64,000 nt of DNA, taken from NCBI GenBank assembly GCA_015680905.1, contig CM027378.1, positions 7,297,001 through 7,361,000 on the forward strand. The letters run 5' to 3'. Source of the stretch: Coptis chinensis (taxonomy: Eukaryota; Streptophyta; Magnoliopsida; Ranunculales; Ranunculaceae). A program made the translations under genes and the position numbers. Below are positions 4,613 to 43,477 of this stretch, in pieces; within the stretch, counting starts at the first letter, position 1, and every line of letters starts with the position of its first letter. The notes beneath the pieces were generated by a model. The model did not search any database. It was not told the DNA's origin and worked only from the letters and a program-made list of their open reading frames with translations.

Positions 4613-7434
4613 ATCGTCTAATCTCTATAGCATAAAAAGGGCTTCTACATTAGTCCTTTCATCCATGTGTTTTTTCAAATATAGCTCAGGTTATTGAGAT
4701 GTATACATGGATATATATATGTATCATTATTTAGTCACGTTATACCAATAAATAATCATAGATCCGATTAGATAATATACTCATATTCTTATATACCTTG
4801 GCCAAATAACAAAGTGGTGAAACCCAAAATTGAGCATATTAAACAAATATAACATAGCCGAAACAAATATGAAAAGTATAACAAAAAATATATTATCAAC
4901 TACATACCGTTAACACGACCAATTTAACTCAAAGTACTTTAAAGTGCCAAGTTACCAGCCAAGAAAAAATTAACATAGTCAATGCTCCCACATAGATAGA
5001 ACGGTAAAGTATTATTCGTACCAAATAGTGGCTAATCATGCAAAAATTCAGAAACTACATAGCTGATCTACACTAGCTACATAATGGTGGTTAATCATAT
5101 TGTTTTTGTTTATCATTTAGTCTTAAATCTCCACAACCAATATACATCAGATGCTTCCATTCTTAGGCTGTCGTCTTATAAAGTGTAAATACTTAAACCA
5201 AACTTAGTGAAAAATATAAAGCCACCAATGACACACACACACACACACACCAATTAACATTATGTGCATTGTGTGGACAGATATATTTAAAGATTCTACA
5301 TATTTTAATATAATAAACAATAACAACATAAAAAATGTCAGTGGAAAATAAACAGTAGAACCTTACTTGAAAGGTGCTACACAAAACAATAAATATTCTT
5401 CAATAATGTTTAACTTCAACCAAAATTTTCTAGCATAGTAAACACACAAAATTCTTTCACAGGTGGAGTGATTAACTGTAATTGATGCTTGCATTACGCT
5501 TGAAGAATATACTAACATGTACATCCATTACCCTTGCATACTGGAGTGATTAACTTAGAAATAATTAGAACTATTGTGCAAGAATCTTTACATGTACATC
5601 GACAAACAATCATATATGCAGATTTGAGACGATCATGTCGAAAGGGTAAACTTGCTTGTACAGAGCTGACTGTTGTACATGCATAATTAATATTGGCTCT
5701 TGAGACACATTTGTGTAACAAATCAGATGTTTCAAAGTGGAAAAAATGAACCTAATATTTAAAGCTAACAATCTGATAAACCATGAAGGCATGAACCTAT
5801 TGTTAATCAACACTATTTGATAATATATGGTGTCTTTGAAATAAATAAATAAACAAAAAAGCCCTCCATATTTGAAACCAAATCCAAGTACAATGATGAC
5901 TTCTACATATTTGAAACCAAATCCAAGTAAAACATTAAATGGTGTATTATTATGGTAAGCAAAGTGTGTATCTCATCCATGACTACTAAAGCACGTATCA
6001 TTCATAGAGTTATGTGTGTTAATAACAAAGCAATAAAAAGGATAGTTGAATAGGAAATTTCTATCTAAGATAAGATCTTATAAGTGATGTATTATTTTCA
6101 ATTACTTGTATATGTGAGATTGGCCAGTAGAGTAAATAAAATAACACAAATAGAACAGGGAAAAACTTATTTTAAAACAACAAATATGTAAAACCAAACA
6201 CCATCGATAACACACAAATATATACCTTTATCATAAATCATAAATCATAAATCATAAATCAGTTACAGGATCAAAAGAACCCATTATCATACCTTTTGCA
6301 ATATTCTGCTAACGTGCTCGCCTCTTCTGCAACTCGATATCTAAACAAAATAAAGGAACCAAAATCAATAATTATGAAAATAATTTATGATGACTTTGCA
6401 CTTTCACTGGTATCAATCCACCGTCATCCACTTTTACTGATTCTAGAATGTAACTAATTGCTTAGACAATCAAATTTTGGAAAAATATAAACAATCATTA
6501 TAAGATATACGAACTTAGTGTTGCTAAATAAACTTGTAAGTACTGCTACTATTTGAAATTCAAGCATTCAATCGAGCAGGATTTACATGAAATAGGACTG
6601 ATAAGACGCAAGAATAATTGGGGTCATGGCAAACACAAAAAAGGCAAAACAATATTTGTAGGGTACTTTTGAATAGTTCAGAATTTACCTTTGAATTTGT
6701 AGGGTAGGCTCCTTTTTTTTTAGTGCTTTATGTTATATAATCGTGATGGATTTATATAGGTTTAGTATTAAGTTGATTTGTTGAACCGATTGAGTAGAAA
6801 AACAGATAAACATTAATATTAATAGAGTCCTACTAAAAACAACATTAACAGTAATAGAGTCCTATTAAAATTGTAAGATTTAGTTAGATGATAAGATTTA
6901 GTTAGAGATTCTGTTGGTTATAAGCCGTATTCATACTTAAGTTGTAAGCAGTAATAGAGTCCTATTAAAATTGTAAGATTTAGTTAGAGATTAGTTTCAA
7001 CTTAGTTTAACCATATATGTAGCGGCCAAAATGAAAATTATTTATATTTGATTTATAATATTTCAACATGTAAACATATAGAATCCTACATTGTCAGAAA
7101 GTAATAAATTAATTTCCAACTTGAGAGCTTCTATGACGGTGAGAACTGAGGACAAAGGGATATTTAAACCAAATTTGGAGTCTAACACACACATCTATTC
7201 CTCTATGACAGTCAGAACGATACATTAGTCATAGCAGTCAAGCAAAGATATCTCAAGAAAATCAGACAGCCTGTTATGAATTATGATTGGGCTGTGCCAT
7301 CCACCTTAAGAAACGCCGAAAGAGTGGTCTTTCTTACCAAGTATTACGGTCTGCAAATTAGATAGTTTGTCAATAACAACAACTAACCAAAAAAGGGAAA
7401 TAGAAGTAAAGAGATTCAGTATGGGAGCAAGTAC
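4613..7434. other. Gene-poor AT-rich stretch
   Basis: No convincing coding region is seen on either strand. It contains a (CA)n run at 5231-5251, a near-perfect repeat of catatttgaaaccaaatcc around 5868 and 5907, a run of about four aaatcat units near 6236-6260, and two copies of a roughly 35 bp segment with agtcctattaaaattgtaag near 6855 and 6957. A short open minus-strand stretch bounded by AG and GT (about 6295-6341) could be a stray exon but is too short to name. Confidence 0.6.
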
Positions 7435-9879
7435 TCACCATATGCAAGCGCAGATAGGGATATGATTTGGATATCTAGAGTATAGCAACTAAGGAAAAAG
7501 TAACATGTTTATAGCGAAAAACTATTTGGCATATCAACAATCACAGTAATAATCTACAAAAAATAAATATTTGAAGTGTAAGTACCTGAGAACAAAAGGG
7601 TGCAATTCGCTACCTATAGTGTGTGTGGATCGAGGCAAGATGATAACAAACGTGCTCAATGTCACTGCAATGACAATAGCAGTAACGGAGAACCTTACAG
7701 GTCCAAGCACTCTGACTGAACATTGCAGGAAGCACCCCTTCGACAGTACCAAAGACAACATTCCAACAACTGCGCAAAGTGTCACCAAGAGTTGCTTCGG
7801 ATACAATAAGGGTTACATTAACATATGATAGAGCTGGGAATGCTAACGTGTGATGGAGAGTGAGTGGACTAAATAGGGTATGGGGTGAAATAAAGTTCTT
7901 TACAACCTGTTTTGTTAATTTCTCAACTACTTCTTTCTCCATATCAAGAATTTTACATGTCTCTACTTTCAATGGAGCAAGACATGGGCGGACTTCAACG
8001 GGTTCTCTGGCTAAGAAATATAAATTCACATTTTTCAAGTGGAACTGAGTAATTGGGTCTAACTGAAGTTGATTCATTGGTGAATCCAATTTCAGTTTCC
8101 ATTGGTCTCTAAGTGTGGATACATAAGGAGATTTGTCTCGGGAGCAAGTGATGTTGATCCGTCGTGGGTCCTTGAGCTTCGACATACCTGGTGGAGCAGA
8201 GGCATTCGAATTGGCTGCAAAGTTTTGGGTGTAGTAACTAAGTGAATGGCAGGGAGCTTGAACTGCATGGCTATTGCGATGGCTATTGCTTGAACTGCAT
8301 TGTTATTTGACTCTACTTTTTCTTCATGTTGATTGCAGTCTTGAGGCAAATTTACTTTGATGTGTCCCCAGAATTGGACAAGATTATCTTTGAGCCACTC
8401 GAGTTCCTAAAGTTTTCTATCAAAACCCACTTAAATAATGCATCTAACGGTCTGGTCCTACCAGCAACACCTCATCATTCAAATTTGATCATCCCTTCCT
8501 CCAATTTCAAAAGTCAAGCACGAAGTTGTATACGATCTTAACCATCACACCACCGGAGGTGGGCTTAGGACTTGACAGTTCTCAGAATTGATTCAGGAAG
8601 ATCCTCACATGGATCTGGACCAAGAGCAACAATAATATCTGACATCTTCGCCATAAGTCTGATTTCCGAGGTCCATTTTAAGAAGAATCAACCCGCGAAG
8701 CGGTTTGGATTATTTTAAATTATTCTTTGATAGCAAGCGGTTTGGTGGCGGTGACAAGAACAATGTAATGGTGATGGAAGTCGCGGAATTAGGGAGGAAA
8801 CAGAGCTTCAAAGTGTGATTGATAAGTTGGTATCGAGGTTTGAGGAATAAAAAGGGAAGGTTAAATTTTGGCTCGGGTCATTGATATCCCTTGGGCTTAT
8901 TCGACTCACATGTTATACCCTCCGTTTGGGTGCTCGATATGCTTGTCCTGATATGAATACGTGAAACTAAGATTAGTGCGTGTTCGTAATTTAAGCCGCG
9001 AGTTTGTGGACAATGCTACCAAGATTGATTCCACTGGGGCACTGGGGAGTACAAAGTGGTGTCATTTGCTATCAATTTGATTTGGATTGCTTTCGGATGT
9101 GAAGTGTTTGCTCTTGGCTCTAGTAAATGTGATTTGGATAAATACACCTTTCAAGCAAATAATAAAATGCCCTCTTAATTATATGTCCATTTCCGTTAAA
9201 GGCATGTTTTATTTCATTTTGAGTGGGTTGTATACCATGTACGGTGGAGTAGTGTTATATGTGGTATCTTTAGACAGTGTTGAGGAGAAGTTTTACTTGT
9301 CAAAACTCCTACTCTATATCTGCCGAGCGACTTTGTTACATGAAATAGTTGGTTGCGTATCTGTTGTTGTACCAAACTACGGACGCATATGTTATGAATG
9401 GGAAGTTTGAGTTTTGGAAGACCTTTGCATAGGAGAATGGTGCAAGCAATATGGTAACGAATTTCATGGAGACTGGTTTCAAATGCGTGTTAACTCTATG
9501 TGTACTATGTGTTTGATGTCCAGTTGTAGAAATTGAGATAGTTGTAGCTTGATCCAAGGACCAATTACATCATGCGACCTTATATAGATAGCCTTGTTCC
9601 GAACATATTTGGTGATCCAGATTTTTGGTGAGCAATGAGAATGTAAAGAAGATGTGCTTCCCGGTGTTTTTTCAATGTTGCTTGCAAATCTTGATATAAA
9701 GAGGCAATTCTAGTTTCCCTTCAAATTATCTGGTCATCAAGTCAGTACATTTGGGGAAAAAAAAATTCAAGCTATGGCACCGTTCTAGGATGCACCTTAG
9801 ATTTTCTTAGCTCTTGCTTCTGGTTGCTTCATGTGTGTTTAACACTATGATTTTTCCTTTAGGTGTACAGTTCCATATC
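7435..9879. repeat. 2.45 kb duplicated block, copy 1
   Basis: The block from tcaccatatgcaag (7435) to acagttccatatc (9879) recurs at 13751-16203 in the same orientation, 6.3 kb away. Identity is very high, with long identical runs, but there are many 1-4 bp indels, concentrated in 8160-9100. The block carries a FUSC-like fragment on the minus strand fused in frame to an unknown sequence. Beyond 8.4 kb no intact gene is seen, although 9.0-9.55 kb has open stretches on both strands that are conserved between the copies. The nature of the duplicated unit (nested transposon or segmental duplication) is not clear. Confidence 0.92.
7586..8185 (-). pseudogene. FUSC-like membrane transporter fragment fused to an unknown sequence, copy 1
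   Basis: On the minus strand an unknown in-frame segment (including NQLQLDPITQFHLKNVNLYF and DMEKEVVEKLTKQVVKNF) runs straight into a stretch resembling plant FUSC / aromatic-acid-exporter-like membrane proteins: TLAFPALSYVNVTLIVSEAT, LGDTLRSCWNVV, then, in another frame, LGPVRFSVTAIVIAVTLSTF. A GT donor follows at 7585-7584. The FUSC assignment rests on remembered family sequences with LVAFPAFSYVT and SDATLGDTLRGCW. A frameshift near 7720 breaks the frame in this copy. Only the first membrane segments are present, so it is not functional as a transporter. The upstream unknown part is nearly identical in both copies. Confidence 0.5.
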
Positions 9880-10134
9880 TACGAATACCTATTCCAAAGT
9901 TGACAAATAACTTATATTTTTTGAATTAGTCGAATTGGAAAAGTGAGCGTGCTAATATTATAAATTTAAACTAAAAATTAAAGGACTTAATAGTGACAAA
10001 CTTTCATAAATAAGAAGCGTTAAACCTCGGCCATTAAAAAAATTATATGTGATCAACATACTAAAATTTTGGTATCAAAATACTAATCCTTATGGTTTTC
10101 TTTTCTTTATTATGGAACTCTCCATGTCCTTCAT

Positions 10135-10572
10135 TCATTTAATTTTTTCTTCGAGAGAATATATTTTATCTTTGTTGTGTTTATCATCAACGAAACAATC
10201 TAGCATAATATTTTTGAGGATGTCGAGTTGATTCTGTTTCTCTTCAACTTCTATTCTTTTCTTCATAAGTTCTTTGAAATTGAAGTCTTCAATTTCCATA
10301 TCACGTTCATCCTTTATAAATTGTATTGCGTTAAAAGCTGCGGAATCCTCTGCTTTTGGAATAGAATATGTTGGGCTTCCATCAATTTCTCTAACTATGA
10401 CGTCTTCACTGTTAAAGAATAAGTCTTTTGGTACCTTTAATGTCACAGTGCTTTTGAATCGTCCGCTCTCTAATTCAATGTTGTAGACCGGTTCTTGTTG
10501 AATGTTAAGTCCTTCTTCTAGAATTTCCTTTAACATTTTTTTTTTACATAAGCTGTAATTTTCATACGCCAT
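10135..10572 (-). CDS. Small dsRBD-like protein with coiled-coil tail (copy A)
   Basis: The protein is 145 aa from the ATG at 10572 (MAYENYS...). An AG acceptor-like site lies immediately upstream (ttgcag at 10581-10576), so an untranslated or coding exon may precede it. Residues of about 10-85 follow the order of a double-stranded-RNA-binding fold: a helix (MLKEILEEGLN), then EPVYNIELESGRFKSTVTLK as beta strands, then a C-terminal helix rich in Ala (KAEDSAAFNAIQFIKDE). The rest is charged and heptad-like (MKKRIEVEEKQNQLDILKNI). It is clearly paralogous to the gene at 11256-11756, sharing EPVY, the E(D/N).AA..NAI.F core and the KEL/KEV..KR.E motif. The function is unknown; dsRNA binding is inferred only from the pattern, and the basic KKxAK motif typical of good RNA binders is weak. 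It lies inside Helitron-rich DNA. Confidence 0.6.
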   Translation of the reverse strand: MAYENYSLCKKKMLKEILEEGLNIQQEPVYNIELESGRFKSTVTLKVPKDLFFNSEDVIVREIDGSPTYSIPKAEDSAAFNAIQFIKDERDMEIEDFNFKELMKKRIEVEEKQNQLDILKNIMLDCFVDDKHNKDKIYSLEEKIK

Positions 10573-11255
10573 TATCTGCAATATACATAATAAAATGAAG
10601 TCAATAAATAATTGTAAATAATGGTGAAGAGGAAGAAAATAGGCTACCTGGTTTTTCGATATGTGCAGTTAAATTGTTTTTTTTTTAGGTTAATAGATTA
10701 TGTATTACTAAGTGATTGGAAGTTCACTTTTCCTAGTTTTTTAGTTTTGTATATCTCTTAAATTTTGATATAAGTATGAAGGAGAAAGGCTTCAGTGTGT
10801 CTCAAAAGTTTTAATCAATGAGTTTGGACCATAAATAGGAGATGAAAGTAATGACCGAAGAAACAATGAGTTTGGACCATAAACCTCACCACATGACTAT
10901 GTAAATTTGCAAAATAATAGTCATAGTACATACGCATTGCCCCCGTTTTCACCAGGGAATGGATGAAAAAGTTTATTTTCCTTTTATTGGTGGACGGTGG
11001 ACAAAGTACATTTTGGCAAATTAACGCGTGGAGCTAAGGCGCTAAGCTGAAGCAAGAAATATGTTTGGGACTAAATCTGATGCAAATGTAGAGAAAAATA
11101 AATATTTCATTAAGTTATGATGAACTATAGATAATTCAAATCGAAAAAAACAAAAACATAAATCTGATGTATCTAACACTGTGCTAATCCTCATCCAATA
11201 TAGAATTCAATTTGGAAAACAACTAAAAAATAAATTTGATTGATCTAACACTACG

Positions 11256-11756
11256 CTAATCCTCATCCAATTCTGATGAATTATTTGGGATGCTTAGGTA
11301 GTCCATTTCCCAATTTGGTCCTCCTATAAGCAATGCTTCATTTATTGACTTCAAATAGGCATTTTCTTTTCTCAAGTTTTCAATATATTGATGAAGTTGT
11401 TTTTCTCTATGAGTTGCTTCATGTAGCTCTTCACGTTTAGTAATGACTTCTTTGTGGTTGACATCTAAAACCTCAAATTTGTATATCTGCTGTAGAAAGC
11501 GGATAGCGTTTCCTGCAGCCGCATTTTCTGAGTCCACTTTTTTAGTTTGATACGTCCCTGGAAATGATTGGCTTATAGGATATTTTGGATTTTTGAAGAT
11601 TTCTCTCATTATCGGCAAATCTATTATGACATCTGCAGCGTATTGGTTGTTTTGAATCTTTGATATGTAAACTGGTTCTCCCTCAATTTTTTCCTTGATG
11701 AGAATTTCCTTCAACGCTGTCTTGAGTGAAATACTATATTTGGTTTCATACTCCAT
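11256..11756 (-). CDS. Small dsRBD-like protein with coiled-coil tail (copy B)
   Basis: The protein is 166 aa from the ATG at 11756 (MEYETKYS...), chosen because it aligns with the start of copy A. The open frame extends 20 codons further, and a CAG acceptor-like site precedes LMEYE just as it precedes IMAYE in copy A. Order: helix (ALKEILIKEKIEG), beta strands (EPVYISKIQNNQYAADVIID), GTYQTKKVDSENAAAGNAIR (Ala-rich helix, KK kept), then a long charged coiled coil (KREELHEATHREKQLHQYIE) and an acidic end (NNSSELDED). Relatives are not identified. The overall plan resembles a single dsRBD followed by a dimerising helix. The 3' end is locally duplicated: a ctaatcctcatccaat segment recurs at about 11183-11198 and 11255-11270. 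About 0.7 kb separates it from copy A, on the same strand. Confidence 0.62.
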   Translation of the reverse strand: MEYETKYSISLKTALKEILIKEKIEGEPVYISKIQNNQYAADVIIDLPIMREIFKNPKYPISQSFPGTYQTKKVDSENAAAGNAIRFLQQIYKFEVLDVNHKEVITKREELHEATHREKQLHQYIENLRKENAYLKSINEALLIGGPNWEMDYLSIPNNSSELDED

Positions 11757-12758
11757 GAGCTGCATTTTAAAAATTACATTAGTTAATGATTTGGAATGTG
11801 ATAGTAACGACAACAAAATGTTTTATAGTTTGAACGGGAACAATTACAAATTGTCAACCAATTGGTGACGAAGTTTTTTGGTTTAATGAAGAAGGTAACA
11901 TTAATAGCCCTAGTAATTTGTCAACACATTTGACATTTTCAAAGCTCAAGGCAAGCGATTTTTAATACTTGATTTTTAGACTTAATAGGTTTTGTTGCCT
12001 CCTAAATCTGCTTTCGTATTGTAGAAAATTGGATTGGAAGCTTCAATCTCCTGAGCTGAGACAAATCCTTCAAGATACTTCTTGAGGAGAGACCGGTTAT
12101 TGTCGATCGACTTATTTGTTTTGAAAATACTTCTGTTAATGGCATCTTTACTTCACTCTTCACTTTCTTTATCCCATTTTTCAGTATATTAATTTTCATA
12201 TGGTTTCTGACCTCTCCTTTTGAGATTGTGTCAAGAATGAGACCCTTCTTATGAATGAGAAAAATTAAAATTTACTACAGTAATCCTGGCTCCACTAAAT
12301 TACTTTTAGTTACTGAATAAATCCTACATTGACATAGTTTCCCAGTTTGTGTTCAATTAAGCAAAATTTACTAAGATGATTTATGTCCTATTAGGCATCC
12401 AACTATAGAAGCATCTCACCCTAAGTTTGCCTAATGCATTTATCTGACACAACAAACACAACAACAGTCTATCGTAGCGAAATAGCTTTAAGACAAATTC
12501 TATACATCCAAAACAATGACAATAGCAGCAAAACATATAAATTTGTACAAAGCATTAAGCAAGAAACAGACTCAATCATTGATAAGCGAAGTAAACTACA
12601 CATCCAAGATACATTAAGCTACGCAGTATTGCAGTCTACCTAAAGTTTCATAACCAAAATTCTGTCAAATAAATAGTGACATAACGGTATGGGCACAGTT
12701 AAGAAGTGAGGTTGCATTTTTGCGAAGCTGTATTTATCTTAAGGTTTTTGTTTCATAG
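11757..12758. other. Stretch without an identifiable gene
   Basis: A minus-strand region at 12000-12200 has partly open frames (one reads LLKKYLEGFVSAQEIEASNP) but is interrupted and matches no family I recognise. The remainder is AT-rich with no clear signal. Confidence 0.45.
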
Positions 12759-13126
12759 AAGTCTTTAGTCATGAAAGGTTCAGTGGATACTATGGAGTTG
12801 GTGCATGCACCATATCCAACTTCCTTTTGTCCTTTCCTTTTCTGGTTATGATTTCGGTTGTTTTAGGGAAAATAACGTATTATATGGTGAAATTTCACCC
12901 TGGATTCTCTCACTTTGTTTACGCTGTTCTTATTATGTTTAGCTGTGTTGCTGTTGCAGAGAGCTGCATGATGGTTATTGCAACCTTGGTTCTTAACTAC
13001 ATGATGGGAATAGTAACTGGAGTTGGATGCAAAGTTCATATGAATCTTTTGATGAATTGCGATCCATAATCGCATCTGAGCATCTTGATCCAGTTTTGTC
13101 TTCAACACTACTAAATGATATTTTCC
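12759..13126 (+). pseudogene. ABCG half-transporter membrane-domain fragment, chimeric 3' end
   Basis: After an AG acceptor (catag, ending 12758) the plus strand reads EVFSHERFSGYYGVGACTIS and continues through SFPFLVMISVVLGKITYYMV, FHPGFSHFVYAVLIMFSCVA and ESCMMVIATLVLNYMMGIVT to GVGC at 13030. This is the membrane domain of a plant ABCG (WBC) half transporter of the ABCG12/ABCG15 type. Homology then stops abruptly. A different frame stays open to about 13126 (YESFDELRSIIASEHLDPVL), apparently from another source. The nucleotide-binding domain and the rest of the membrane domain are absent. It is a captured, fused fragment. Confidence 0.85.
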
Positions 13127-13750
13127 TCACTTAGCATGCTCCGTTTAAGGTACACAACTTTTAGCTTAACAGTTTATTTGTATAAATTTGCATTTGTATC
13201 CTAGGTTTCAGTTTATGTGCATGTTTTTTTTTACCTTAACTAACAACAATAACTCTAGTAATACTTGAACACAAACTAATAGAAGGCAATAACATATATT
13301 TTTGATGTTGAATTCATTGATTAAAGAAATCATGTTTATTAATACTAATAAATAAAATTGAAGTATATGTAAAAAGAAAATTTTGTTTACCTTAACCGTT
13401 TGTGTTACTCTTTCTGTAGCCTTAATTCAATATCTTCTATTCTATGCAATGAAAAATTTTAGAGGAATTCAATTAGATATGTAATATTTGATTCAACACA
13501 GAAAAAATATTTGAGAACCAAAAGTTTACCTGTGTTTTTTATATGCGTTGGGAGTGGGGAGATATGATCGTATGTTTTGTATATGTATAGGTTGGTGGAA
13601 AGATAAGAAAAGGTTTTCTTATTTCATTAGAATTCCAGTATTAGTATGACTCTAATTTTGAACATATCTATAATTTTTTTTTTGTTTGACAATTAGAAGT
13701 TAAAGCATGGTGGGACTGTTCCTTGTAGTTATCTATACTGATCGTAGAAT
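13127..13750. other. Stretch without an identifiable gene
   Basis: AT-rich spacer between the ABCG fragment and the second copy of the 2.45 kb block. I see no coding or structured signal. Confidence 0.5.
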
Positions 13751-16203
13751 TCACCATATGCAAGCGCAGATAGGGATATGATTTGGATATCTAGAGTATA
13801 GCAACTAAGGAAAAAGTAACATGTTTATAGCGAAAAACTATTTGGCATATCAACAATCACAGTAATAATCTACAAAAAATAAATATTTGAAGTGTAAGTA
13901 CCTGAGAACAAAAGGGTGCAATTCGCTTACTTATAGTGTGTGTGGACTGAGGCAGTACGATAACAAACGTGCTCAATGTCACTGCAATGACAATAGCAGT
14001 AACGGAGAACCTTACAGGTCCAAGCACTCGGTGAACATAGCAGGAAACACCCTTCGACAAGCATCCGTAGACGACATTCCAACAACTGCGCAAAGTGTCA
14101 CCAAGAGTTGCTTCGGATACAATAAGGATTACAGTAACATATGATAGAGCTGGGAATGCTAACGTGTGATGGAGAGTGAGTGGACTAAATAGGGTATGGG
14201 GTGAAATAAAGTTCTTTACAACTTGTTTTGTTAATTTCTCAACTACTTCTTTCTCCATATCAAGAATTTTACATGTCTCTACTTTCAATGGAGCAAGACA
14301 TGGGCGGACTTCAACGGGTTCTCTGGCTAAGAAATATAAATTCACATTTTTCAAGTGGAACTGAGTAATTGGGTCTAACTGAAGTTGATTCATTGGTGAA
14401 TCCAATTTCAGTTTCCATTGGTCTCTAAGTGTGGATACATAAGGAGATTTGTCTCGGGAGCAAGTGATGTTGATCTGTCAGTCCTTGAGCTTCCTGACAT
14501 ACCTGGTGGAGCAGAGGCATTCGAATTGGCTACAAAGTTTTGGGTGTAGTAACTAAGTGAATGGCAGGGAGCTTGAACTGCATGGCTATTGCGATGGCTA
14601 TTGCTTGAACTGCATTGTTATTTGACTCTACTTTTTCTTCATGCTGATTGCAGTCTTGAGGCAGATTTACTTTGATGTGTCCCCGAATTGGACAAGATAT
14701 TATCTTTGAGCCACTTTCGAGTTCCTAAAGTTTTCTATCAAAACCCACTTAAATAATGCATCTAACGGTGCGGTCCTACCCAAACACCTCATCATTCAAA
14801 TTTGATCATCCCTTCCTCCAATTTCAAAAGTCAAGCCACGAAGTTGTATAACGATCTTAACCATCACACCACGGAGGTGGGCTTAGGACTTGACAGTTCT
14901 CGAATTGATTCGGGGAAGATCCTCACATGGATCTGGACCAAGAGCAACAATAATATTTGACATCTTCGCCATAAGTCTGATTTCGAGGTCCATTTGTAAG
15001 AAGAATCAACCCTTGAAGCGGTTTGGATTATTTTAAATTATTCTTTGATAGCAAGCAGTTTGGTGGCGGTGTGATAACAATGTAATGGTGATGGAAGTGC
15101 GGGATTAGGGAGAGGAAACGAGCTTTCGCGGTGTGATTGATAAGTTGGTATCGAGGTGTGAGGAATAAAAAGGAATGTTAAATTTTGGCTCTTGGTCGTT
15201 GATATCCCTTGGGCTTATTCCTAACTCACATGTTATACCCTCCGTTTGGGTGCTTTCGATATGCTTGTCCCGATATGAATACGTGAAACTAAGATTAGTG
15301 CATGTTAAGTAATTTAAGCCGCGAAGTTTGTGGACAATGCTACCAAGATTGATTCCATCTGGGGCACCGGGGGGGAGTACAAAGTGGTGTCATTTGCTAT
15401 CAATTTATTTGGATTGCTTTCGGATGTGAAGTGTTTGCTCTTGGCTCTAGTAAATGTATTTGGATAAATACACCTTTCAGCAAATAATAAAATGGCCCTC
15501 TTAATTATATGTCCATTTCCGTTAAAGGCATGTTTTATTTCATTTTGAGTGGGTTGTATACCATGTACGGTGGAGTAGTGTTATATGTGGTATCTTTAGA
15601 CAGTGTTGAGGAGAAGTTTTACTTGTCAAAACTCCCACTCTATATCTGCCGAGCAGCTTTGTTACATGAAATAGTTGGTTGCGTATCTGTTGTTGTACCA
15701 AACTACGGACGCATATGTTATGAATGGGAAGTTTGAGTTCTGGAAGACCTTTGCACAGGAGAATGGCGCAAGCAATATGGTAACGAATTTCATGGAGACT
15801 GGTTTCAAATGCGTGTTAACTCTATGTGTACTATGTGTTTGATGTCCAGCTATAGAAATTGAGATAGTTGTAGCTTGATCCAAGGACCAATTACATCATG
15901 CGACCTTATATAGATAGCCTTGTTCCGAACATATTTGGTGATCCAGATTTTTGGTGAACAGCAGAATGTAAAGAAGATGTGCTCCTGGTGTTTTTTCAAT
16001 GTTGCTTGCAATCTTGATATAAAGAGGCAATTCTAGTTTCCCTTCAAATTATCCGGTCATCATCAGTAGTACATTTGGGGGGAAAAAATTCAAGCTATGG
16101 CAGCTGTTCTAGGATGCACCTTAGATTTTCTTAGCTCTTGCTTCGGGTTGCTTCATGTGTGTTTAAACGCGTGATTTTTCCTTTAGGTGTACAGTTCCAT
16201 ATC
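13751..16203. repeat. 2.45 kb duplicated block, copy 2
   Basis: Partner of 7435-9879 in direct orientation. This copy is 8 bp longer overall. Differences are mostly short indels, many next to CG (for example ctcgag versus ctttcgag, and gctcgat versus gctttcgat). The 7800-8160 portion and its partner at 14115-14475 are almost free of differences. From 16204 to 16799 no gene is recognised. Confidence 0.92.
13902..14405 (-). pseudogene. FUSC-like membrane transporter fragment fused to an unknown sequence, copy 2
   Basis: Same content as 7586-8185 but with the frame kept open through the FUSC-like part: TLAFPALSYVTVILIVSEAT, LGDTLRSCWNVVYG, a short scrambled stretch, then LGPVRFSVTAIVIAVTLSTF, VIVLPQSTHTISKRIA. 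The exon ends at a GT donor (13901-13900). From 14405 the open frame starts MDSPMNQLQLDPITQFHLKN, an unknown sequence. A small deletion further upstream (near 14475-14495) breaks the frame relative to copy 1. It cannot encode a full transporter. Confidence 0.55.
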
Positions 16204-16799
16204 CTCATGTCTTCTTTGTAAGGCTATGGGATCCGAGATTTAATTCGGCTAAGAATTTCAATTAGATTATTGACAAAGTTCTACTCATCCCATCTTGTAT
16301 CTGTCTAATTTGCCTTTGATTTTTATAATTTGCCGAGTCACCAAGTTTTCGATCATTGCATTGAATTCTCTCCAACTTTTGCTCTAATGGGTGTAACTGA
16401 AATGCTCCTTTTCTTTGAACTGAATGTAAGTGAAATTATATCCGTATAATTGGGATCAATTACTTCCGAGCTTGGAGCTTAGGCTTCATTGTTAATATCA
16501 CAACTTGATGCTAAAAGTGAATTATGTTGGTTGTTGGTCGAATGTTACCTCTCCAAGTCAAGCCAAACAGTTGAAAAACATTATTTTCTTAACCACACCT
16601 TAAATAGCAACCAAGTAAAAAGGCTACACCATTTAAAGCAACATAGAAGTTGTAGTGAACTTTCTTGGAGTAAATCAACTACCTAATATCCCCCTATAAG
16701 GTTCTCCGCATTAAAGAAAACCAAAAGCATAGTAAGGATAAGTTATTAAAAAGTTAAAAACACCATAAAGTATTTTTTGTTTGAAATACAGTACCTTCC

Positions 16800-18975
16800 T
16801 CAGATTGCTTGAAAAACTTCTTTATACACAATGTTCTGTGTATATCCTTTTGGCTCATCATCTTCCCTTTTGATTAGAAATTTTAGCCCCTGTCTAGATG
16901 TCGTTCTCGAAACAGCAACATATAACTGCCCATGTGTGAAAATTGGACGTGGTAAATAAACACCAACATGGTTGAAAGTTTGTCCTTGACTCTTGTTTAC
17001 TGTCATTGCGTAACACACTTTGATGGGGAATTGTTTCCTCTTGAAGACAAACGGCCACTTTGTGTCAGTTGGAGATAGGACAATTCTTGGAATCTAGACA
17101 GGTTCACCTATGTTTGTACCTGTAATTATGAATTTGCTTATATGATTGTAAAGTTCTAAATATAATTGAATAAAAGAATATTAATTGGATCACGTATTTT
17201 CGTACCCGTTATAATTTTTGCTTCAATAACTTTGGATCCCATCCTTGTCACAATCAGCCTAGTTCCATTGCAAAGTCCCGCACTTTGATTCAAATTCCGC
17301 ATTAACATTATAGGAACACCAACTTTCAGCTCAATGTTATGGTTTGGTAATCCAGAAAACTGAAGAGTATTCAAAAATTCAGTAGGAAAGAGAACGTCCT
17401 GTTCAGCAGACTTTCTGTAAAACAATGAAGTAATAAGATAATAAAAGTTAAATTTTGTAAAAGAAAAAACAGTTATTTATATAACTACTTTTTTTTTAAG
17501 GTGGTAACCTTCTATAGGACAAAGTGTGTATGCGCACTCAAGTAACTCTGTAAATCTCACGGAAGTGATGAAATAATGTATGAGTTGATTTCATCAACTG
17601 TTTTCATTCTTGGGGCCAAGATGCTTCTTTCCTTGAGGTAATTTTTCTGAACCGTGATTGTTTGCAAAATCTGGATAAATATTTGAAACAATATCTTTAA
17701 TTGAGTCTTCTGATTCAGGAATAAGAAGATCATCTGGAATCTGTATCCATGTTGGTTCAATATCGTTCTCCATAGAAATTGCTGGCAACTTTCCGTCTCC
17801 TAGATCTAGAACCCATTTGCTGAAATCTTCTATAGAACTAGCTATTTCTGGATTCACATTGTCACTTTTTAATCTCATGTTTTGAGTCAGATGAAAAACT
17901 TTACATTTTCCCCAGATTTTAGACCTGTCAAATAGAATTAAAGATGGCAAAATTAAAAATTGCTCAAGGTTACTAAACGAATTATTTGATAAAATTAAGA
18001 TTGTTTGATATATTCAAAGTGGTACCTGTTTATTGAAGCGTCAACAATGTCACCTCGTTGACCCCTTGGAATAACTGGCAAAATCTGTCTGAAGTCTCCA
18101 CCCATTAAAAATGTTTTGCCGCCAAAATATTTGTTATTTTCATCCATTATGTCTTTTAAAGTTCTGTCGGCGACTTGAATCCGTGCCTATGAGTCATTGG
18201 AGCTTCATCCCATAAAATAAGATCTGCTTTTTGTATTAGCTTAGCCAGGTTCTTCATGTTTTGAGATTTTGCATGTCGACTCTTCAACGGTAGGAATTTC
18301 AATATTGAACCTAGAATGTCTTTGTTAAGCCCACTTGGTAGGAGTAGTGATGCTATTCCAGAAGAGGCAACTGCAAGAACAATTTTACCTTCAGATCTTA
18401 GCTTTGAGATGATATTTTTGTACAGATACGTCTTTCCGGTTCCTCCACTGCCGTAAACAAAAATACACCTCCATTCTGTGAATATCTTGCTTGGGTGATA
18501 TTTGGAATACTTCACTTTGTTCATTATTAAGGACTTCATGCATTCTAATGTATTCATCACGTAGTGAACGACAATCATACTCAAGTTCTCCTGCGATCAG
18601 TCTATTACCAGTTGGCATCTGGTCTTTCATATTTGGAAATGGGAAGTCATTGACCTTTGCCAAAGTTTTACCTCTTCTGAGCATGATTTTTTCAATCTCG
18701 CATAGAGTGTAGTTCTTTATTTTCTCCTCTGATAAAACCAATGTCTGATTTCCATTGATTCTTCTATACTGAAATAACAAGTCATCTCCTAATGCCTGGT
18801 GATGTTTTTCCCATAGTTTTTCAGGAAATGATATCTCGCACATCAACATTGGTGTCACAAACAGCTCTCGCAACGCTTTAGGACATAACCATCCGCTAGC
18901 TTCTTTTAGTGCATCATCCCACTCTTTGTCATCATCGAGCAAACCTAGTGCCTGGCAGGTAAATTTAATTGAACA
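16800..18975 (-). pseudogene. RepHel 2 helicase part (PIF1-like), frameshifted
   Basis: The region begins at 18975 with ALGLLDDDKEWDDALKEASG. Motifs in order are: Walker A in FVYGSGGTGKTYLYKNIISK (near 18440), AVASSGIASLLLPSG, Walker [16 protein letters not shown] (near 18190-18230), [14 protein letters not shown] (about 18050-18090), an intron (about 18024-17932), KCKVFHLTQNMRLKSDNVNP, GLPNHNIELKVGVPIMLMRN, and the C-terminal NKSQGQTFNHVGVYLPRPIF and VAVSRTTSRQGLKFL. These are the signature motifs of Helitron PIF1-family helicases. Frameshifts occur just before Walker A, after LLLPSG and near 17595, and about 100 bp of extra sequence lies near 17110-17200. The gene is dead. Confidence 0.9.
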
Positions 18976-20735
18976 ATTAAATATGTATAGTTTAAAATTA
19001 AAATTCAGCATATATTAACCGGGGAGTTTTTCAAAATAGACAATAGTAGTGTGTATGTGTTTCCTAAGTTTATTTGTAAAAGTTTTAGGAGAGTCCCTTT
19101 TCTTTATTGTCGGATTAAGTATGCTCCTCCAAAAGTGCTTCCACCGTATCAACCAACCTATACACACTCTTGAGACGAAATATTGGCACGAAAGTCTCTT
19201 AGCAAATGTTTTGTAAACACTATTTCCTTAGGGAAGACATCATGTGCTCGGGTTATTGCTAATGAAGCAATAAGTAATGAAAAACTATTTCCTTTTTTCC
19301 CCATTAATACACACATTTGTTAGTTTCCGCCTATAAATAGACTTACATTTGTGACCTGTTCTACTTGAATTTTTTTTGCTTGCAAGAAATCCTATTTTCT
19401 GTTACTAAATTCAGCTAAACATGATTTACCATGTTTTGTTGTCATATCTATTCCTTTTACTTTATTTTACTTTGTTGTCATGACTCGACCGCTAAAAGAA
19501 ATGTGTTGTTGCCAAAGGAAGCAACAGGATACTTAGTGATGAGTGATGACCTAATGAGCGGATGGACTGCCTTTCTCAGTTCAACCTTAACCTGCCTGAG
19601 GTTTGGGTTAAAGGTAGGGTAAGTTCTAGAAACCCACAGACATCACCCCCACCAATGCAAACACACATAATCCAAAAGCTTGCTAAATCTTTTTACAAAA
19701 AGCGGGACGGGGTAGGCCTTCATCTTGGCGGCGGGGCCAATCAACGACTCAAACTGGGGTATGGATGAACACTACTAACTTACTTCCACATATGCGTCAG
19801 GCCATACTTGCTTTGGTTTTTTCTACGTATATCATGTTCATTGTGAGTGCATGAATCCCAAGATGCAAGCTGGCGGTCATTGATTTAGAATCCTGCTACT
19901 TCTCATACATGCAATTATTTCTGCATTATATATGAATGTTGTTTTGTCTATATTGAAATAAGAACTTTATGTATGTAATGTGCAAAACATTCTCTCTAGT
20001 ACTTTTGAATAGCCTATAAGACCATGGTTTACATGAGACAGGAATGGAGGCAACCTGGAGAGTACCGACTGAAATGGCTTTCACCTCCACTTTTCCTTAC
20101 TTTAGGAGGTATTTGACTACATCCAAGTTGCAACCTTCATATGTTCCGGTGAGTCTTTTATTTTTTCTTCTTTACATTCTTTTTATATATTTCTCATTGT
20201 GAAGACAGAAGACTCTAATTAATTCAGGCCTAGATACTAAGTTTATGTAAACAGTTGACACCATAAAAGCTTGTATACATCTTCTATGCCTGTAATCTAT
20301 ATTTTAAGTAATTACATGTGGTGACTCTTCAAAATGTCAGCGTAGACTTCAATGGAACTCCTTCCATTAATTAGGATATTCATTTGATAATGAGCAGTGG
20401 CTTAGACTCCTCAATTAATACCCAGCTATGGGGTTCATCTCGGTAATGTGGCTTTCAAAGTCGAACCACCTAAAGGCGATGCAATTGTGTTGTCTCCCTT
20501 TTGAGTATTTAGAAGATGTAAAAGCTTATATTAGTACAATGAGTCTGTCGATTGTGTGTGTGGTAAACAGTTAAATTATATTTTGGTAAACAGTAATTCA
20601 ACAATATAGCATGGTAAAAATGATATTTAAATTATATTCATCTAGAAATAACTATGTGTTGACATGATTATGTTGTTTAACTTCCCAAGATCCAACAATT
20701 ATAATGATATAAGAAAACAAAATTTCATAAGTTAC
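18976..20735. other. Insertion splitting RepHel 2 between Rep and helicase
   Basis: Helitron 1 reads continuously across this point; here about 1.76 kb intervenes. Its borders look like a minus-strand intron: Rep ends at aatgtgaggtaact and the helicase resumes after ttacctgccag. It holds open plus-strand stretches that look like captured pieces, for example about 20050-20151 (starting MEATWRVPTEMAFTSTFPYF and ending at a GT donor, gtgagt) and about 20425-20530 (GVHLGNVAFKVEPPKGDAIV). I do not recognise the donor genes. No clear target duplication or terminal repeat is seen. Confidence 0.6.
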
Positions 20736-21790
20736 CTCACATTTGCTTTGAAAGTAGGATAAATAGTTCCATTGACTGTTCTGATTTCTTCAAAACTTCT
20801 AGGACCTTTGACAATATTAAGCAACATCCGTAAGTAAAATCTCTCCCCTGATGTAGGGTGAGCATAGTAAACACGGCCGATCTTTCTTTTACCCTTTCCC
20901 CGTCTAGGAGTCCACACTCTGTCATTGACTTGCCAAACCCATTTAGTGGGAAATTCCATATAAGTAAGTTCTCTAGCAGATGGATACATGGCATTGGCTT
21001 TAAACCATTCTGTAAATTTGGTTTTTGAAGCTTTCTCGCGTTTGATGACTTCTTCTGGTAAATCATTGTCACCGTAGTAGACAATTTGTTCTCCTTCAAG
21101 ATGAAATGGCAACCTCTCTACGCTTGGGTCTCTGTATTGAATTTCAAAGTTTAATAATCTCCAACATGCTTCAGAAGCAGAAAGATAACGACAATCAAGA
21201 AAACGTCCAACTTCGTCCACATCTCGAATGATTTGCTTCCCCGTGTCTACATCTGTTGCGACATTCTCAACAATAAAAGCAGTGGCTCTATCTTTGCCCT
21301 TGTTAATATATTTGAAAAGATACTTTATCGACCTTGCCTTATTACAATGCTCAACATTTATGTGTGCTTGAAATTTAACACACAAATCGACATTATGTGG
21401 TATTACCCACCTATTGTCCAGTTCCTCAGTCTTATCAAACACTTTAACCGTTACATTTTCGACCATTGTTTCTTCTCATATAAGCGGTGAAGTCATTGTG
21501 ATCAATTGTAGTATGATTGTTAAAAGCCTTCGGATAGTGTTTAGAACATTTATTTTCCAACATGGGCGAGCTTGGATTTTTATCTCCACGGTCCGTGTAT
21601 CATAAAGCGTGTAACTTCTTTGATACTGTAACTTTATCTTTCCGGGTCGGGAAGCTCGGTGATATTAACTTATTTATCCGAGAAAGCAGGAGTTTTGGGC
21701 TTGGAACTATTATCCAAGAAAAGCAATATATGAGCATGAGGTAATCCTCTCTTCGAAACTCTATTGTGTATATTCTTTGCAAAAACAAAG
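20732..21790 (-). pseudogene. RepHel 2 Rep nuclease part with HUH motif, frameshifted
   Basis: The rolling-circle nuclease signature GLPHAHILLFLD (HUH) is readable at about 21750-21710, but a frameshift lies on each side of it. It is followed, in shifted frames, by MIHGP, NPSSPMLENKCSKHYPKAF and then the open stretch 21466-20732: NRWVIPHNVDLCVKFQAHIN, SIKYLFKYINKGKDRA (paired Tyr motif YLFKY), FLDCRYLSASEACWRLLNFE, LPFHLEGEQIVYY and IGRVYYAHPTSGERFYLRML. The catalytic His pair and both Tyr residues survive as codons, but the frame does not. Confidence 0.88.
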
Positions 21791-22420
21791 AAAAGACAAT
21801 AAAAGAATTTAAGGTAAGCTTTTCATATAAGAAAAGATCATTAAATCCAACAGGGCATTAACTGCCAAATTATGCAAACAAGTTTTTTTTTTGGAAACTA
21901 TAGGAAAGTATGGATTTTAGCATAGCATCTATTTTGAGTATGATACTGCAAAGTAAGTCCTAGGCAAAATGGACAACTCTTAGATCACCGTCTGGCTTTG
22001 TAAATAGTTAACATGTGGCTGTAATCAGCCAAGGTGCAATAGAAACCTGGATTCTATAGGTCATCTATCTTCTCAATAATGTCTAAACAGTTAACACAAA
22101 AAAGTTTTTAGATGCAATAGCAACCTATACGTCGCATGAGCATTGGCATCCCGAACCAATTGGATGCTTCCTAAACTCCCCTGCCATAGGCTTTTGCTAG
22201 TATTCCTACACACATTCATCAGATACTTTCTCATCTATTTCTTGAGTAGTTCAGAAACTCCTTTTACCCTGTAGCAAAATGAACAATATCGATACTTTTA
22301 ATTGCTCTTAGGGCCCAACCAGTCCTGTCCAACCCGTTTTTGTTGTATTTGCCTAAATGAATATGTAGCTCATGGAGCATGTCCTCGAGATTTATATACT
22401 GTTTGTTTTAACTATTGCAG

Positions 22421-24621: not shown

Positions 24622-26640
24622 TTAAATATAAAAGCGACGACCTGCCCAAGCTTTACCAAAATGTTTACGCCGTTTTAAATCGATCATTAACTTCGTGCGT
24701 TTTATTTCAAATACCCGAGCAACAATATCAGGGGCATCTTCAGGTTTTAGTCCCTTAGAAACCTTGTCCAATGCCATTTGAATTTCAGACCACTTGGGGT
24801 TGCAAGTAAATGTGGTGAAAATGTCGGGGAGTTCGGCCCATCTGGAAATGGCTATGGCATCCTGATAATTTTGTACCATATATCTTGGACCACCTGTAAA
24901 AGACGATAGTAAAACTAATCATTTGTCATTATAAATTTATTTTTAAAACTTGTAAGTGAGTTTTGGGGATTTCAATAGACTTAATTACTGTAAAAGGCGA
25001 TGGTAAAACTAATCGTCTACCAGGCGGATCTTGAGTTTAGTGTCCCCGAAACAACAAAGCATCAACCAAACCTTGGTACAATTCTGCACGAATAGTATGT
25101 TGGTTATTTCTAACCCATGAAAGCCTCATCTCCTCAACAGCAGTATATGCATCTACCCAAAACTGTAGCTTCAATCGTTTACTTTTGACTATTGTTAGCC
25201 CTTCATTTACTCTCATTTGCATTCTAAATGCATAGTACTCTCTCGTGGTAACATGTTGTCTTTTACCCACTTTACTACCATTTCTGTACTTGGTTTCAGG
25301 CACATATCCATCAGCTCCGTCAGGAAATAAGAGAGGGTATTGCATTGACATAAAACTTGGAAAAGTTTCATCAATTCTCTTTAAGCCGTATCCTTTCTTG
25401 TCAACAATAATGTCACGGTGACCTTGAGATTCATCTCCATTACCAACAATGAGAGCAGCTACCTCATTAGAAGTTGGTAAGTTGTAGAGCCTTCCATCAG
25501 TTCCTCTTGTGCTAATGAGTCTTATACTAACATCAGCGGTTTCAGATTCTTCAAAACGATCTCTCGCCATTTTGTAAGTCTCAGCTATTCTGTTGTTTTC
25601 ATTTAACATGCTAATAAGTCCTGCTATAATGTTTGGATCTAACGGTTTCTTCTTTTCAATTTTCTTACTAAAAGAGTTCAATCTGTTTTGCACTTCATTG
25701 CCTGTATCATATATGTATAACTGCCCAAATTTAGGAGTCTGGCCTGGAACAAAGGAAAAAAACCAAATTAACTCATAAAAAACATGTAAAAACATAATTA
25801 TTACAAAAATTCAAATGACTAATTATTTGCTCCATTTTTCATTGAAGAAAATCATATTTACGGGAAAAATCTAATATCCTAGCCAATAAAAAAAAAATCT
25901 AATATCTTAATATCTAAAAATCTAATATTTTAAAATATTTTGAAGAGGATATTGTACTTCATTGGCTGTATCATATATGTATAACTGCCCAAATTTAGGA
26001 GGTGTACCTGGAATTGGTAGTAGGGAACCAATGTTGTGGTGATTTTGTCCGCTGATCTTAAAAACATAGGGTCCCCTACCATTGTTTATTTTTTTATCAA
26101 CCACTCCCCCAGTTGATGTGAAAGCAAACATCGTGTTATACGCCCTCATGTTTTCTCTGTAATTTGTAGACATTGAACCACCTTCAAAATCTAGTAGCTG
26201 GTTTAGGAATGGAGGTGCATCGACTAAAAAAGAGGAAGTGAACTTTTCCATGGAGGCAGCATATTCCAAACTTTGGTTTCTTGGTCTGCTTTATTCTACC
26301 AACCCTTTCTTCATACCAAAGTATTGCTCCACAAAACGAACACATAAACTTTGGCTCTCCAAAATTCCAGGCTTCATGACAATTTCCTGTGTTAAACACA
26401 AACATATAAAATTTTTTAGGAATTTTTATCATAATACAAAATTAAAATATATTGAAAATCTTACTTTTATGTTCAGTTTCATTTGATATGTCTTCTTCAT
26501 CACCATCTGATTCACTACTCCTCATTTGTGAATAATAATACTCTTCATCTAATGATACAGACTCATTAAACTCGGCAACAACGGATTTTTTCCTCTTCTT
26601 CTTCAGGTCAGCTCTTTTTTGCTTGGAAATTGTACAAAAC
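24622..26640 (-). pseudogene. RepHel 2 N-terminal domains, frameshifted and partly duplicated
   Basis: An acidic N-terminal exon (about 26640-26466, KKKRKKSVVAEFNESVSLDE) is followed by NFGEPKFMCSFCGAILWYEE, a CxxC domain shared with RepHel 1. After one frameshift comes MRAYNTMFAFTSTGGVVDKK. The next segment, KFGQLYIYDT(A/G)NEVQ, occurs twice (about 25950-26010 and 25690-25745), separated by 200 bp that resemble 1822-1925. Then come LISTRGTDGRLYNLPTSNEV, FPSFMSMQYPLLFPDGADGY, TTREYYAFRMQMRVNEGLTI and, after a stop and a local 110 bp duplication (24890-25030), NYQDAIAISRWAELPDIFTT. This is the Helitron-like N domain. It is not translatable as it stands. Confidence 0.88.
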
Positions 26641-27224: not shown

Positions 27225-28470
27225 CATTTTTTACTGTTGAACACGTATTGTTCATACCTACTTTAAGTATGAACACGTATTGTTCATATCTGTTTTTGGT
27301 ATAAACATTTATTGTTCATATCTGCTTTGGGTTCATGTGTTTTTGTTGATATGAACATGTATTTTTCATATCTGTTTTGGGTATGAACAATCAATGTTCA
27401 TATATGTTTTTGGTATGAACATTTATTGTTCATATATGTTTTGGATATGAACAATCAATGTTCATATCTGTTTTGGGTTCATGTTTTTAAAAAAAACATA
27501 TATGAACAAATCAATGTTCATATATATTTTGGGTATGAACATTTATTGTTCATGTTTGTTTTGGGTATGAACAATCAATGTTCATATCTGTTTTGAGTTC
27601 ATGTTTTTTTGGGTATGAACCCACGGTATGAACAATCAATGTTCATATATGTTTTGGGTATGAACAATCAATGTTCATGTCCGTTTTGGGTATGAACATT
27701 TATTGTTCATATATGTTTTGGGTATGAACAATCAATGTTCATATCTGTTTTGGGTTCATGTTTTTTTTAAAAACATATATGAACAAATCAATGTTCATAT
27801 ATATTTTGGGTATGAACATTTATTGTTCATGTTTATTTTGGGTATGAACAATCAATGTTCATATCTGTTTCGAGTTCATGTTTTTTTGGGTATGAACCCA
27901 CGGTATAAACAATCAATGTTCATATATGTTTTGGGTATGAACAATCAATGTTCATGTCCGTTTTGGATATGAACCTTTATTGTTCATATATATTTTGGGT
28001 ATGAACAATCAATGTTCATATCTATTTTGGGTTCATATTTTTTTTTATACCTAAAGAAGGTATGAACAATCAATGTTCATATCTGTTTTGGGTGTGAACA
28101 TTTATTGTTCATATCTGTTTTGTTCATACCTATTGTTCATAGCTAATGTTCATAATTTGGAGTATGAACAATTATTGTTCATATCTGTTTTGGATTTATG
28201 TTTTCATAGCCACAATTAATGTTCATAGCTGATGTTCAACATGGATATGTATGAACAATTAATGTTCATACCTATTGTGGGTATGAACAATCAATGTTCA
28301 TAACTGGATCAATGTTCATACATGAATAGGTATGAGCAATGCTTGTTCATAGCTCAAATAGGTATGAACACTCATTGTTCATAGCTAATGTTCATAATTG
28401 GGGGTATGAACAATCAATGTTCATAGCTATTGTTCATACATGGATAGGTATGAACAATCATTATTTATAA
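27225..28470. repeat. Minisatellite of 32 bp near-palindromic units
   Basis: About 1.25 kb of tandem units. The commonest is 21 bp tatgaacaatcaatgttcat(a), an imperfect palindrome (TGAACA...TGTTCA), plus an 11 bp spacer like tctgttttggg, giving a 32 bp period. Variants have attta in place of atcaa, or a spacer lengthened by T runs. A higher-order copy is visible: sequence from about 27497 recurs from about 27773, including the unusual gaacccacggtat, offset 276-277 bp. The right third (28130-28470) is more divergent. Open frames across it (for example 27703-27972) are repeat translations, not genes. Single strands could form many hairpins. Confidence 0.95.
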
Positions 28471-30084: not shown

Positions 30085-30403
30085 TTGTTTTAGAATTTCT
30101 CTAGTAGGAACCATAACAACAGCATAAGGACCCCTCAGCCTCATTTTCCTCACTCATAGGTGGCAATCTAGATATATAAGTCAACATAGGAAGTACAAAA
30201 GTAGCAGTTTTACCTGACCCAGTTTCCGCAATCCCAATCACATCTCTCTGCTGCAACCCAAGTGGTATAGCTGCCATCTGAATAGGAGAAGGTGTCTTAT
30301 GCCCGGCTTTATCCACCGCTTTCAACACCCATATCATCCATTTCATTGCCCACCATCCCAGCAACCATTTCAACAACCATCCCTTCACTTCCAACTCTGC
30401 CAA
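30085..30403 (-). pseudogene. DEAD-box helicase RH21 (PRP28/U5-100K type) fragment
   Basis: From about 30330 the minus strand reads [65 protein letters not shown]. This is the Q motif plus motif I of the spliceosomal DEAD-box helicase RH21/PRP28. One extra G after GAG shifts the frame near 30137; in the new frame it continues [11 protein letters not shown] (motif Ia) and then loses similarity. The upstream sequence to 30403 is not helicase-like. Motifs II (DEAD), III and VI are absent. It sits in the same orientation as the invertase fragment. Confidence 0.92.
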
Positions 30404-33053: not shown

Positions 33054-33405
33054 GTCTAAATGCTGCAAGTAGATCGACCGAGAACAGATAAGTAGGAGAT
33101 TATCTTTTCAAAGTTAATATAATTAACTAAAAAATAAATATAAAAGGAAAACAAATGTATGTCCAACGAAGTAGTAAACTGTAGTGATTTCAAACACTTG
33201 GCATATATAGAAAATGGGTGTGTATATTCCAATAAAGAACAAAAGAGAATATAAAAAAAATGGCGAATGTGAATAATGTCTCCATAGTAGCTGATGGTCC
33301 TCTACACTGCAATAGGATAAAAAAATTAATCAGTTAATAAGTAATTCGCTCTATACGAAGTTAAAAAAAATGAAAATTTGATATTAAACTAATATTTTTT
33401 TTACC

Positions 33406-43115: not shown

Positions 43116-43477
43116 CAAGAATATATATAGATACATTGAGGAAAGAGTGTGGAGTTGGTGTGAAGTTGGACATTGAGGAATTGGTGTTTGATTTCGATTG
43201 GAAGAGAACATCAGTGTTTGATTTCAATTGCAAGACATAAAGGAGGAATGACTAAATAATAACAAAAGAAAAGGAGGAATAACTAAATAATAACAAAAGA
43301 GAGATTGCAATTTGCCTACTCGAGAGTTGAGGAGACTTCCGAAATACCCGGGTAGAGACTAGTATGATATGCCGACAAAAGCATTGAAATGCCTGGTAAA
43401 TATACCGACACTGTACAATGGCGAAACATTTAGTTATATGAAGAAGGGTTTGAGAGATATTTTTTTGTTGTGGGGCA

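Follow-up and report, generated by a model that had tools for sequence, protein, structure and literature searches.

The accessory genes of some plant Helitrons are related to RPA, as in the PHRPA elements and in Mothra and its sister families (PMC4683698, accessible part). Some fungal Helitrons encode a TET/JBP dioxygenase, which is thought to counter methylation-based silencing (PMC12730594, accessible part), and VANC, an accessory protein of the VANDAL (MULE) transposons of plants, counters host silencing (PMC13317346, accessible part). We have analyzed a stretch of 64,000 nucleotides from Coptis chinensis (GCA_015680905.1, contig CM027378.1, positions 7,297,001 to 7,361,000; the window) in which two small paralogous genes, termed P1 and P2, lie within Helitron DNA. 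With two further paralogues, P3 and P4, they form a four-gene family of a Helitron lineage, whose products appear to contain a degenerate domain of the double-stranded RNA (dsRNA)-binding type (dsRBD). Our preferred reading, to which we give somewhat less than an even chance, is that these proteins work by protein contact and dampen the silencing carried out by the Dicer-like (DCL) and DRB proteins of the host. Helitrons are targets of small-RNA silencing.

As far as they are described in the accessible part of the source, the PHRPA Helitrons resemble the P-bearing elements in having a Rep-helicase (RepHel), with an additional gene retained next to it, and a hairpin at the 3' end. They differ in that the extra gene is RPA-like, whereas the P-bearing elements have dsRBD-like genes, with as many as four paralogues clustered together. 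The TET/JBP genes are likewise accessory genes borne by Helitrons, for which an anti-silencing role is proposed by the author of that paper. Yet TET/JBP is an enzyme that acts on methylated DNA in fungi, whereas P1 to P4 are not similar to any enzyme and, on our reading, would intervene at the small-RNA step. VANC, as described in the accessible part of its source, acts on the DNA methylation of its own family; it is likened to P1–P4 by description, their role being conjectural. Neither 'RNA-binding' nor 'Dicer' occurs in the main text, as accessible, of a review from 2026 on how plant transposons capture genes (PMC13317346). A search of the literature pairing Helitron with dsRBD, double-stranded RNA-binding or anti-silencing gave no Helitron gene of the dsRBD or Dicer-partner type among the matches listed, subscription journals and Repbase lying outside its scope. 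Provisionally, a dsRBD-like multi-gene cluster, if kept in one plant lineage, would count as a new class among the accessory genes of Helitrons. It makes it possible to test whether, through domain mimicry, a transposon is able to disable the Dicer/DRB step. In plant genomes, moreover, genes of the P type may be annotated as host dsRNA-binding proteins.

A first-pass annotation of the window, made from the sequence alone, reported two open frames of 145 and 166 codons on the minus strand, about 0.7 kb apart. Both are present with the coordinates and lengths claimed (Table 1), separated by 683 bases; an alternative in-frame ATG at 11765 would give P2 169 codons. Over 20 simulated windows of matched dinucleotide make-up, ATG frames of at least 145 amino acids arose at 0.15 per window and those of at least 166 at 0.05 per window. 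The two products had been called paralogous with motifs in common, and they align with E = 3e-14 and 34% identity over 120 positions. They share M.YE..YS, EPVY, the corresponding segments EDSAAFNAIQF and ENAAAGNAIRF, and a charged tail. The annotation was also right that P1 and P2 are open while their neighbors are broken; the Rep and helicase sequences of the adjacent Helitron (Helitron A) are distributed over several frames, and next to P2 lies a transporter fragment. It had further pointed to an AG resembling a splice acceptor before each start, and GCAG does precede both ATGs in the window. Among the copies listed, the tetramer before the P1 ATG is GCAG in nine of 12, GTAG in two and GCAA in one, and before the P2 ATG it is GCAG in all six. 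No such site was seen directly before the start of P3 at the four starts listed.

We searched the assembly (936 Mb in 116 contigs) for relatives of P1, obtaining 1040 candidates of which 150 were scored. There are at least 151 matches, and P1 is therefore a repeat-borne gene and not a single captured exon. The gene content (PPR-DYW, Helitron DUF223 and Dicer domains) is plant-like. A peptide-pattern search of viral and prokaryote sequence collections returned no relatives. We read 12 loci, comprising about 20 kb around each of ten further P1 copies and two additional loci; statements below on fetched loci apply to the stretches read. The copy on contig C72 is colinear, with gaps, with positions 5222–20571 of the window, while at the other loci similarity is confined to segments surrounding the P genes and to patches in between. 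In some copies P1 is adjoined by P3 and P4, and where the paralogues co-occur their order is P2-P1-P3-P4. There are two exceptions, namely C7:58.38M, where a P1-like gene lies on each side of P3-P4, and C7:92.04M, where there is a second, broken P1. P2 lies upstream of P1 at five of the 12 loci, at two of them in two pieces. P3 is present at five (two broken, one with a stop), as is P4 (one split, one a fragment, and one running to the end of the fetched stretch). No single locus among the 12 was seen to have all four paralogues intact. We also observed that a stretch coding for QRIQF opens both P4 and a frame upstream of the start of subfamily-2 P1 (L029 ~7381-7367, 4372; L030 2970; L031 8562), perhaps a shared leader or a duplicated splice acceptor. 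Two open copies of subfamily-2 P1 are found 7 kb apart in opposite orientation, at C1:77633171-77633605 (+) and C1:77640532-77640966 (-).

The usual 3' end of a plant Helitron has a short hairpin followed by CTRR, of which CTAG is one form, and is placed before a T. At seven of the 12 fetched loci P1 is followed downstream, on its own strand, by a hairpin, then GGGTTCGAAAACTAG, then T, and beyond this the flanks differ. The T follows CTAG directly in all seven ends, as expected for insertion before T. A genome-wide count of the exact 28-base 3' terminus gave 213 occurrences, compared with zero for the reversed control. We examined the placement of 69 listed P1 copies, that of the window included, which lie within range of 100 listed ends. 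For nine of them (one being L027/L028, already among the fetched loci) an exact 3' end lies downstream within 15 kb on the strand of P1. The corresponding counts were zero for same-strand upstream, zero for opposite-strand downstream and one for opposite-strand upstream, and 1000 random placements gave a same-strand downstream mean of 0.14 with a maximum of 2. At C7:58.38-58.42M a single strand carries in succession Rep, helicase, a P1-like gene, a P3-like gene, P4, a second P1-like gene and a CTAG end. Of the two P1-like genes there, the first is interrupted by a stop and the second is open; the P3-like gene is broken. The order in the window, Rep/helicase A (26.4–16.8 kb), P2, P1, is the same as far as P1. 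These ends, the excess of nine over the random 0.14 and the C7 array bear out the earlier placement of the two genes in Helitron DNA.

Rep and a PIF1-type helicase lie in the same element and strand both at C7:58.38-58.42M and in the window, broken in each case, and a helicase is also present at C72; the other ten fetched loci gave no match or fragments only. The 3' terminus of the family was not found in the window with up to three mismatches allowed, and its element therefore seems to be truncated or rearranged on the 3' side. Helitron 5' ends were not located in the one comparison made, and a scan with a Helitron 5' motif gave no clear signal, with 24 matches against 14.45 expected. As a separate observation, a long terminal repeat (LTR) retrotransposon of about 12.6 kb has inserted into the Helitron helicase gene at C7:58.38M (L030 8287-9836 to L034 1-1126).

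Coding constraint on P1 was estimated as the ratio of nonsynonymous to synonymous divergence (dN/dS) from 62 copies, 24 of which are free of stops in the fetched stretch. The other 38 have at least one stop, some of them in end codons beyond the match. The ratio falls with distance, from 0.71 (dS < 0.05, 23 pairs) through 0.66, 0.51 and 0.42 to 0.35 (dS ≥ 0.4), as expected if the gene stays intact by selection as long as its lineage is mobile and decays in dead copies. Across the two subfamilies dN/dS is 0.35 (561 pairs, dS 0.55), or 0.32 for stop-free copies (140 pairs), with differences at codon positions 1, 2 and 3 of 0.225, 0.132 and 0.280. P2 pairs gave 0.33–0.57, and the values for two additional P2 pieces were 0.69 and 0.34. 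P1 thus looks constrained, and not like a set of decayed fragments alone with dN/dS near 1, which was the contrary outcome foreseen in the first-pass annotation. At the level of sequence we regard the Helitron residence, the gene order in several copies, the multi-copy spread of P1 and a constraint-like pattern in its codons as shown.

To compare the domain with known folds, a profile was built from the trimmed domain of P1–P4 (nine sequences) and aligned by hhalign with seven dsRBD references. The match covers 63 columns, with probability 71.5, P = 3.6e-5 and a score of 29.2, whereas 200 shuffles of the alignment columns reached 15.4 at most. The score stays at 24.3 or above when any paralogue class is removed, and at 20.0 or above when any reference is removed, the shuffles applying to the full set only. 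With references taken singly, the highest scores are those of PKR domain 1 (25.4), HYL1 domain 1 (25.3) and HYL1 domain 2 (21.5). Profile comparison thus supports the assignment of a degenerate dsRBD-type domain to each P protein, with a predicted charged helical tail in P1 and P2. Of the dsRBD likeness first proposed, the full-length family match stands, but most of the dsRNA-contact motifs are missing. We take these motifs to be the GPxH loop and the KKxAK sequence of the dsRBD. None of the aligned members of P1 to P4 has GPxH, and KKxAK is lost in P1, P3 and P4, where acidic residues are found instead; P2 keeps part of it as TKKV.

The pattern of lost motifs bears directly on the idea of the first-pass annotation that the proteins bind silencing dsRNA, in which case they would suppress silencing by sequestering the precursors of Helitron small interfering RNA (siRNA). 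The dsRBD profile match is consistent with this, as is the TKK at the start of helix 2 in P2. With no GPxH in any of the four, and an acidic helix start in place of KKxAK in three of them, dsRNA binding is so far unsupported and we consider such a suppressor improbable. The same annotation had alternatively suggested a dimerizing protein. This agrees better with the results, though weakly: Dicer_dimer is the best Pfam match of the trimmed domain, but it lies under the curated cut-off.

Dicer_dimer (PF03368) is DUF283. In DCL1 and DCL4 of Arabidopsis this domain is folded as a dsRBD and is a binding partner of HYL1 and DRB4 (PMC7827160, accessible part, citing Qin et al. 2010). It is therefore a dsRBD-type fold used for protein contact, and this, together with the missing contact motifs, is why we favor protein–protein contact for the P proteins. 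It is the top Pfam match of the trimmed domain, with weak matches in three of nine members (best E 0.0007), and among full proteins four of 11 members gave weak matches to it. DUF283 is part of Dicer, whereas the P proteins are small and free-standing with a charged tail. The plant DRB proteins (HYL1/DRB1 and DRB4) are a second point of comparison, both HYL1 domains being among the three best single references. They have two domains, whereas a P protein has one, lacks the dsRNA-contact motifs and is encoded by a transposon.

The mechanism that we propose runs as follows. In one plant Helitron lineage P2-P1-P3-P4 occupy the 3' half of the element, after the Rep-helicase gene and before the CTAG end. 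The proteins would act by protein–protein contact and not by holding dsRNA; their partners would be one another, or the dsRBD and DUF283 proteins of host DCL and DRB complexes. As a result the production of siRNA, or RNA-directed DNA methylation, directed against the Helitron would be dampened. This anti-silencing logic may be likened to that of VANC in VANDAL transposons and of the TET/JBP genes in fungal transposons. We infer that host DCL/DRB complexes are the most interesting of the plausible targets, RepHel and self-pairing being the alternatives. A stronger form, in which four self-diversified dsRBD/DUF283-like decoys enter DCL-DRB complexes by domain pairing and suppress small-RNA production, with each paralogue specialized for a partner, is a more doubtful proposition.

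If RepHel were the partner, the P proteins might be replication accessories, serving as dimeric adaptors or as factors for annealing and strand handling, with a role like that of the RPA genes of plant Helitrons. Their position downstream of the helicase would suit this, being that of the DUF223 frame in the second Helitron of the window, and other plant Helitrons do carry RPA as an accessory gene (PMC4683698, accessible part). Moreover, the window DUF223 query found no match in the fetched P-bearing loci, although the region upstream of Rep falls outside the stretch read and an RPA gene may be there. Similarity to RPA is at the level of noise, however; the only RPA OB-fold profile found in the P proteins was Rep_fac-A_C, in P3, with a best E of 0.053. 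We have little inclination towards a replication role.

A number of results weigh against the reading of P1–P4 as dsRBD-type proteins that dampen silencing. Taken singly, the references TRBP2, Xlrbpa2, RNase III and Staufen 3 gave short or weak matches (7.9 to 15.6), and profiles of single paralogues had no match to dsRBDs over the domain. Several searches of PDB sequences returned no dsRBD and nothing credible. Full P1 scores 18.3 bits against Dicer_dimer where the curated cut-off is 23.7, and with full proteins MTR4_beta-barrel scores equal those of Dicer_dimer, which is not so for the trimmed domain. Comparison with three DUF283 exons of the same genome gave 12.1 against a shuffle maximum of 13.3, in a test that true dsRBDs failed too. 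The domain might then be unrelated to the dsRBD, an unassigned small alpha/beta domain with a coiled-coil tail, as the want of a PDB match, of a Pfam match over the cut-off and of convincing single paralogue classes would allow. A colinear match over the full domain, far above 200 shuffles and stable to leaving out any one class or reference, tells against such an unrelated domain, which we think improbable.

The remaining contrary points concern constraint and gene order. The P1 copies were picked by their protein similarity to the window P1, which lowers dN in the ratios given above, and the pairs are not independent. Comparison of singleton with shared variants in P1 revealed no significant difference in the ratio of nonsynonymous to synonymous changes (Fisher p 0.58, 0.39). 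No clear constraint is seen for P3 (dN/dS ~0.66, 0.67 and 3 in three pairs with few changes) or for P4 (0.76, one pair). At three loci Rep fragments occur downstream of P1 and on its strand (L018 2281-3706, L022 5975-6233, L027 8590-8814), and at L012 2765-2965 a helicase fragment lies downstream in reverse, neither of which a simple gene order explains; these could come from nested or tandem Helitrons.

Helitrons capture host exons, and the family might be passive cargo, derived from a host DRB- or DCL-type exon that was captured long ago, underwent duplication and amplification, and serves no function in the element. The transporter fragment beside P2, the stops in 38 of the 62 P1 copies and the slight constraint on P3 and P4 are all in keeping with this. 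Yet the order of four paralogues is fixed in several copies, the frames are free-standing with acceptor-like sites before P1 and P2, and P1 has a dN/dS of 0.35 between subfamilies at a dS of 0.55. We consider cargo without function unlikely, and we retain the anti-silencing reading at the strength given at the outset.

Table 1. Positions in the window of P1, P2, their acceptor-like sites, Helitron A and the 2.45-kb repeats
Feature	Position	Strand	Remarks
P1 gene	10135..10572	-	145 codons; dsRBD-like domain followed by charged coiled-coil-like tail
Acceptor-like AG	10576..10577	-	three bases ahead of P1 ATG
P2 gene	11256..11756	-	166 codons; paralogue of P1; TKK retained at helix 2 start
Acceptor-like AG	11760..11761	-	three bases ahead of P2 ATG; preceded by CTAAT, branch-point-like
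Helitron A PIF1-type helicase	16803..18669	-	split over several frames
Helitron A Rep-helicase, middle part	20735..21803	-	broken
Helitron A Rep N-terminal region (Helitron_like_N)	24640..26375	-	broken
2.45-kb direct repeat, copy 1	7435..9879		abuts 3' side of P1 block
2.45-kb direct repeat, copy 2	13751..16203		between helicase A and P2

The P2-P1 block of the window is bracketed by two direct repeats of 2.45 kb that are 95.1% identical. Among the 12 fetched loci C72 alone shares both of them around P1. About 165 bases of copy 2, at its P2-proximal end, recur upstream of P2 at C9:73.67M (L017). At C7:92.04M there is a pair of 229-bp direct repeats, one on each side of P1, and ten of the 12 loci have no direct repeats of 200 bp or more flanking P1 on both sides within the stretch read. 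The repeats were considered as an LTR retrotransposon and this was rejected, because their ends are not TG..CA and the similarity extends past such ends. They are perhaps a partial duplication of the Helitron. Judged by eye, the differences between the copies seem to cluster, as small indels and substitutions, near CG sites, and sequencing errors at methylated sites could perhaps account for them.

Elsewhere in the window a second RepHel, better kept than that of Helitron A, lies at 33.4–38.1 kb on the minus strand, followed by the frame of DUF223 (RPA-type) at 32442-32858 (E 0.0002, slightly under the cut-off), the two together spanning 32442-38102. Two pieces of host genes are recognizable, the ABC-2 type transporter fragment beside P2 at 12743-13066 (+) (E 1.2e-12) and a DEAD-box helicase fragment at 30104-30403 (-) (E 4.4e-11). 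A dense cluster of overlapping imperfect repeats occupies 27238-28320, just upstream of the Rep region of Helitron A. Lastly, a short gene-like frame at 43454-43900 (+) has a weak match to Med29 (E 0.003, under the cut-off).
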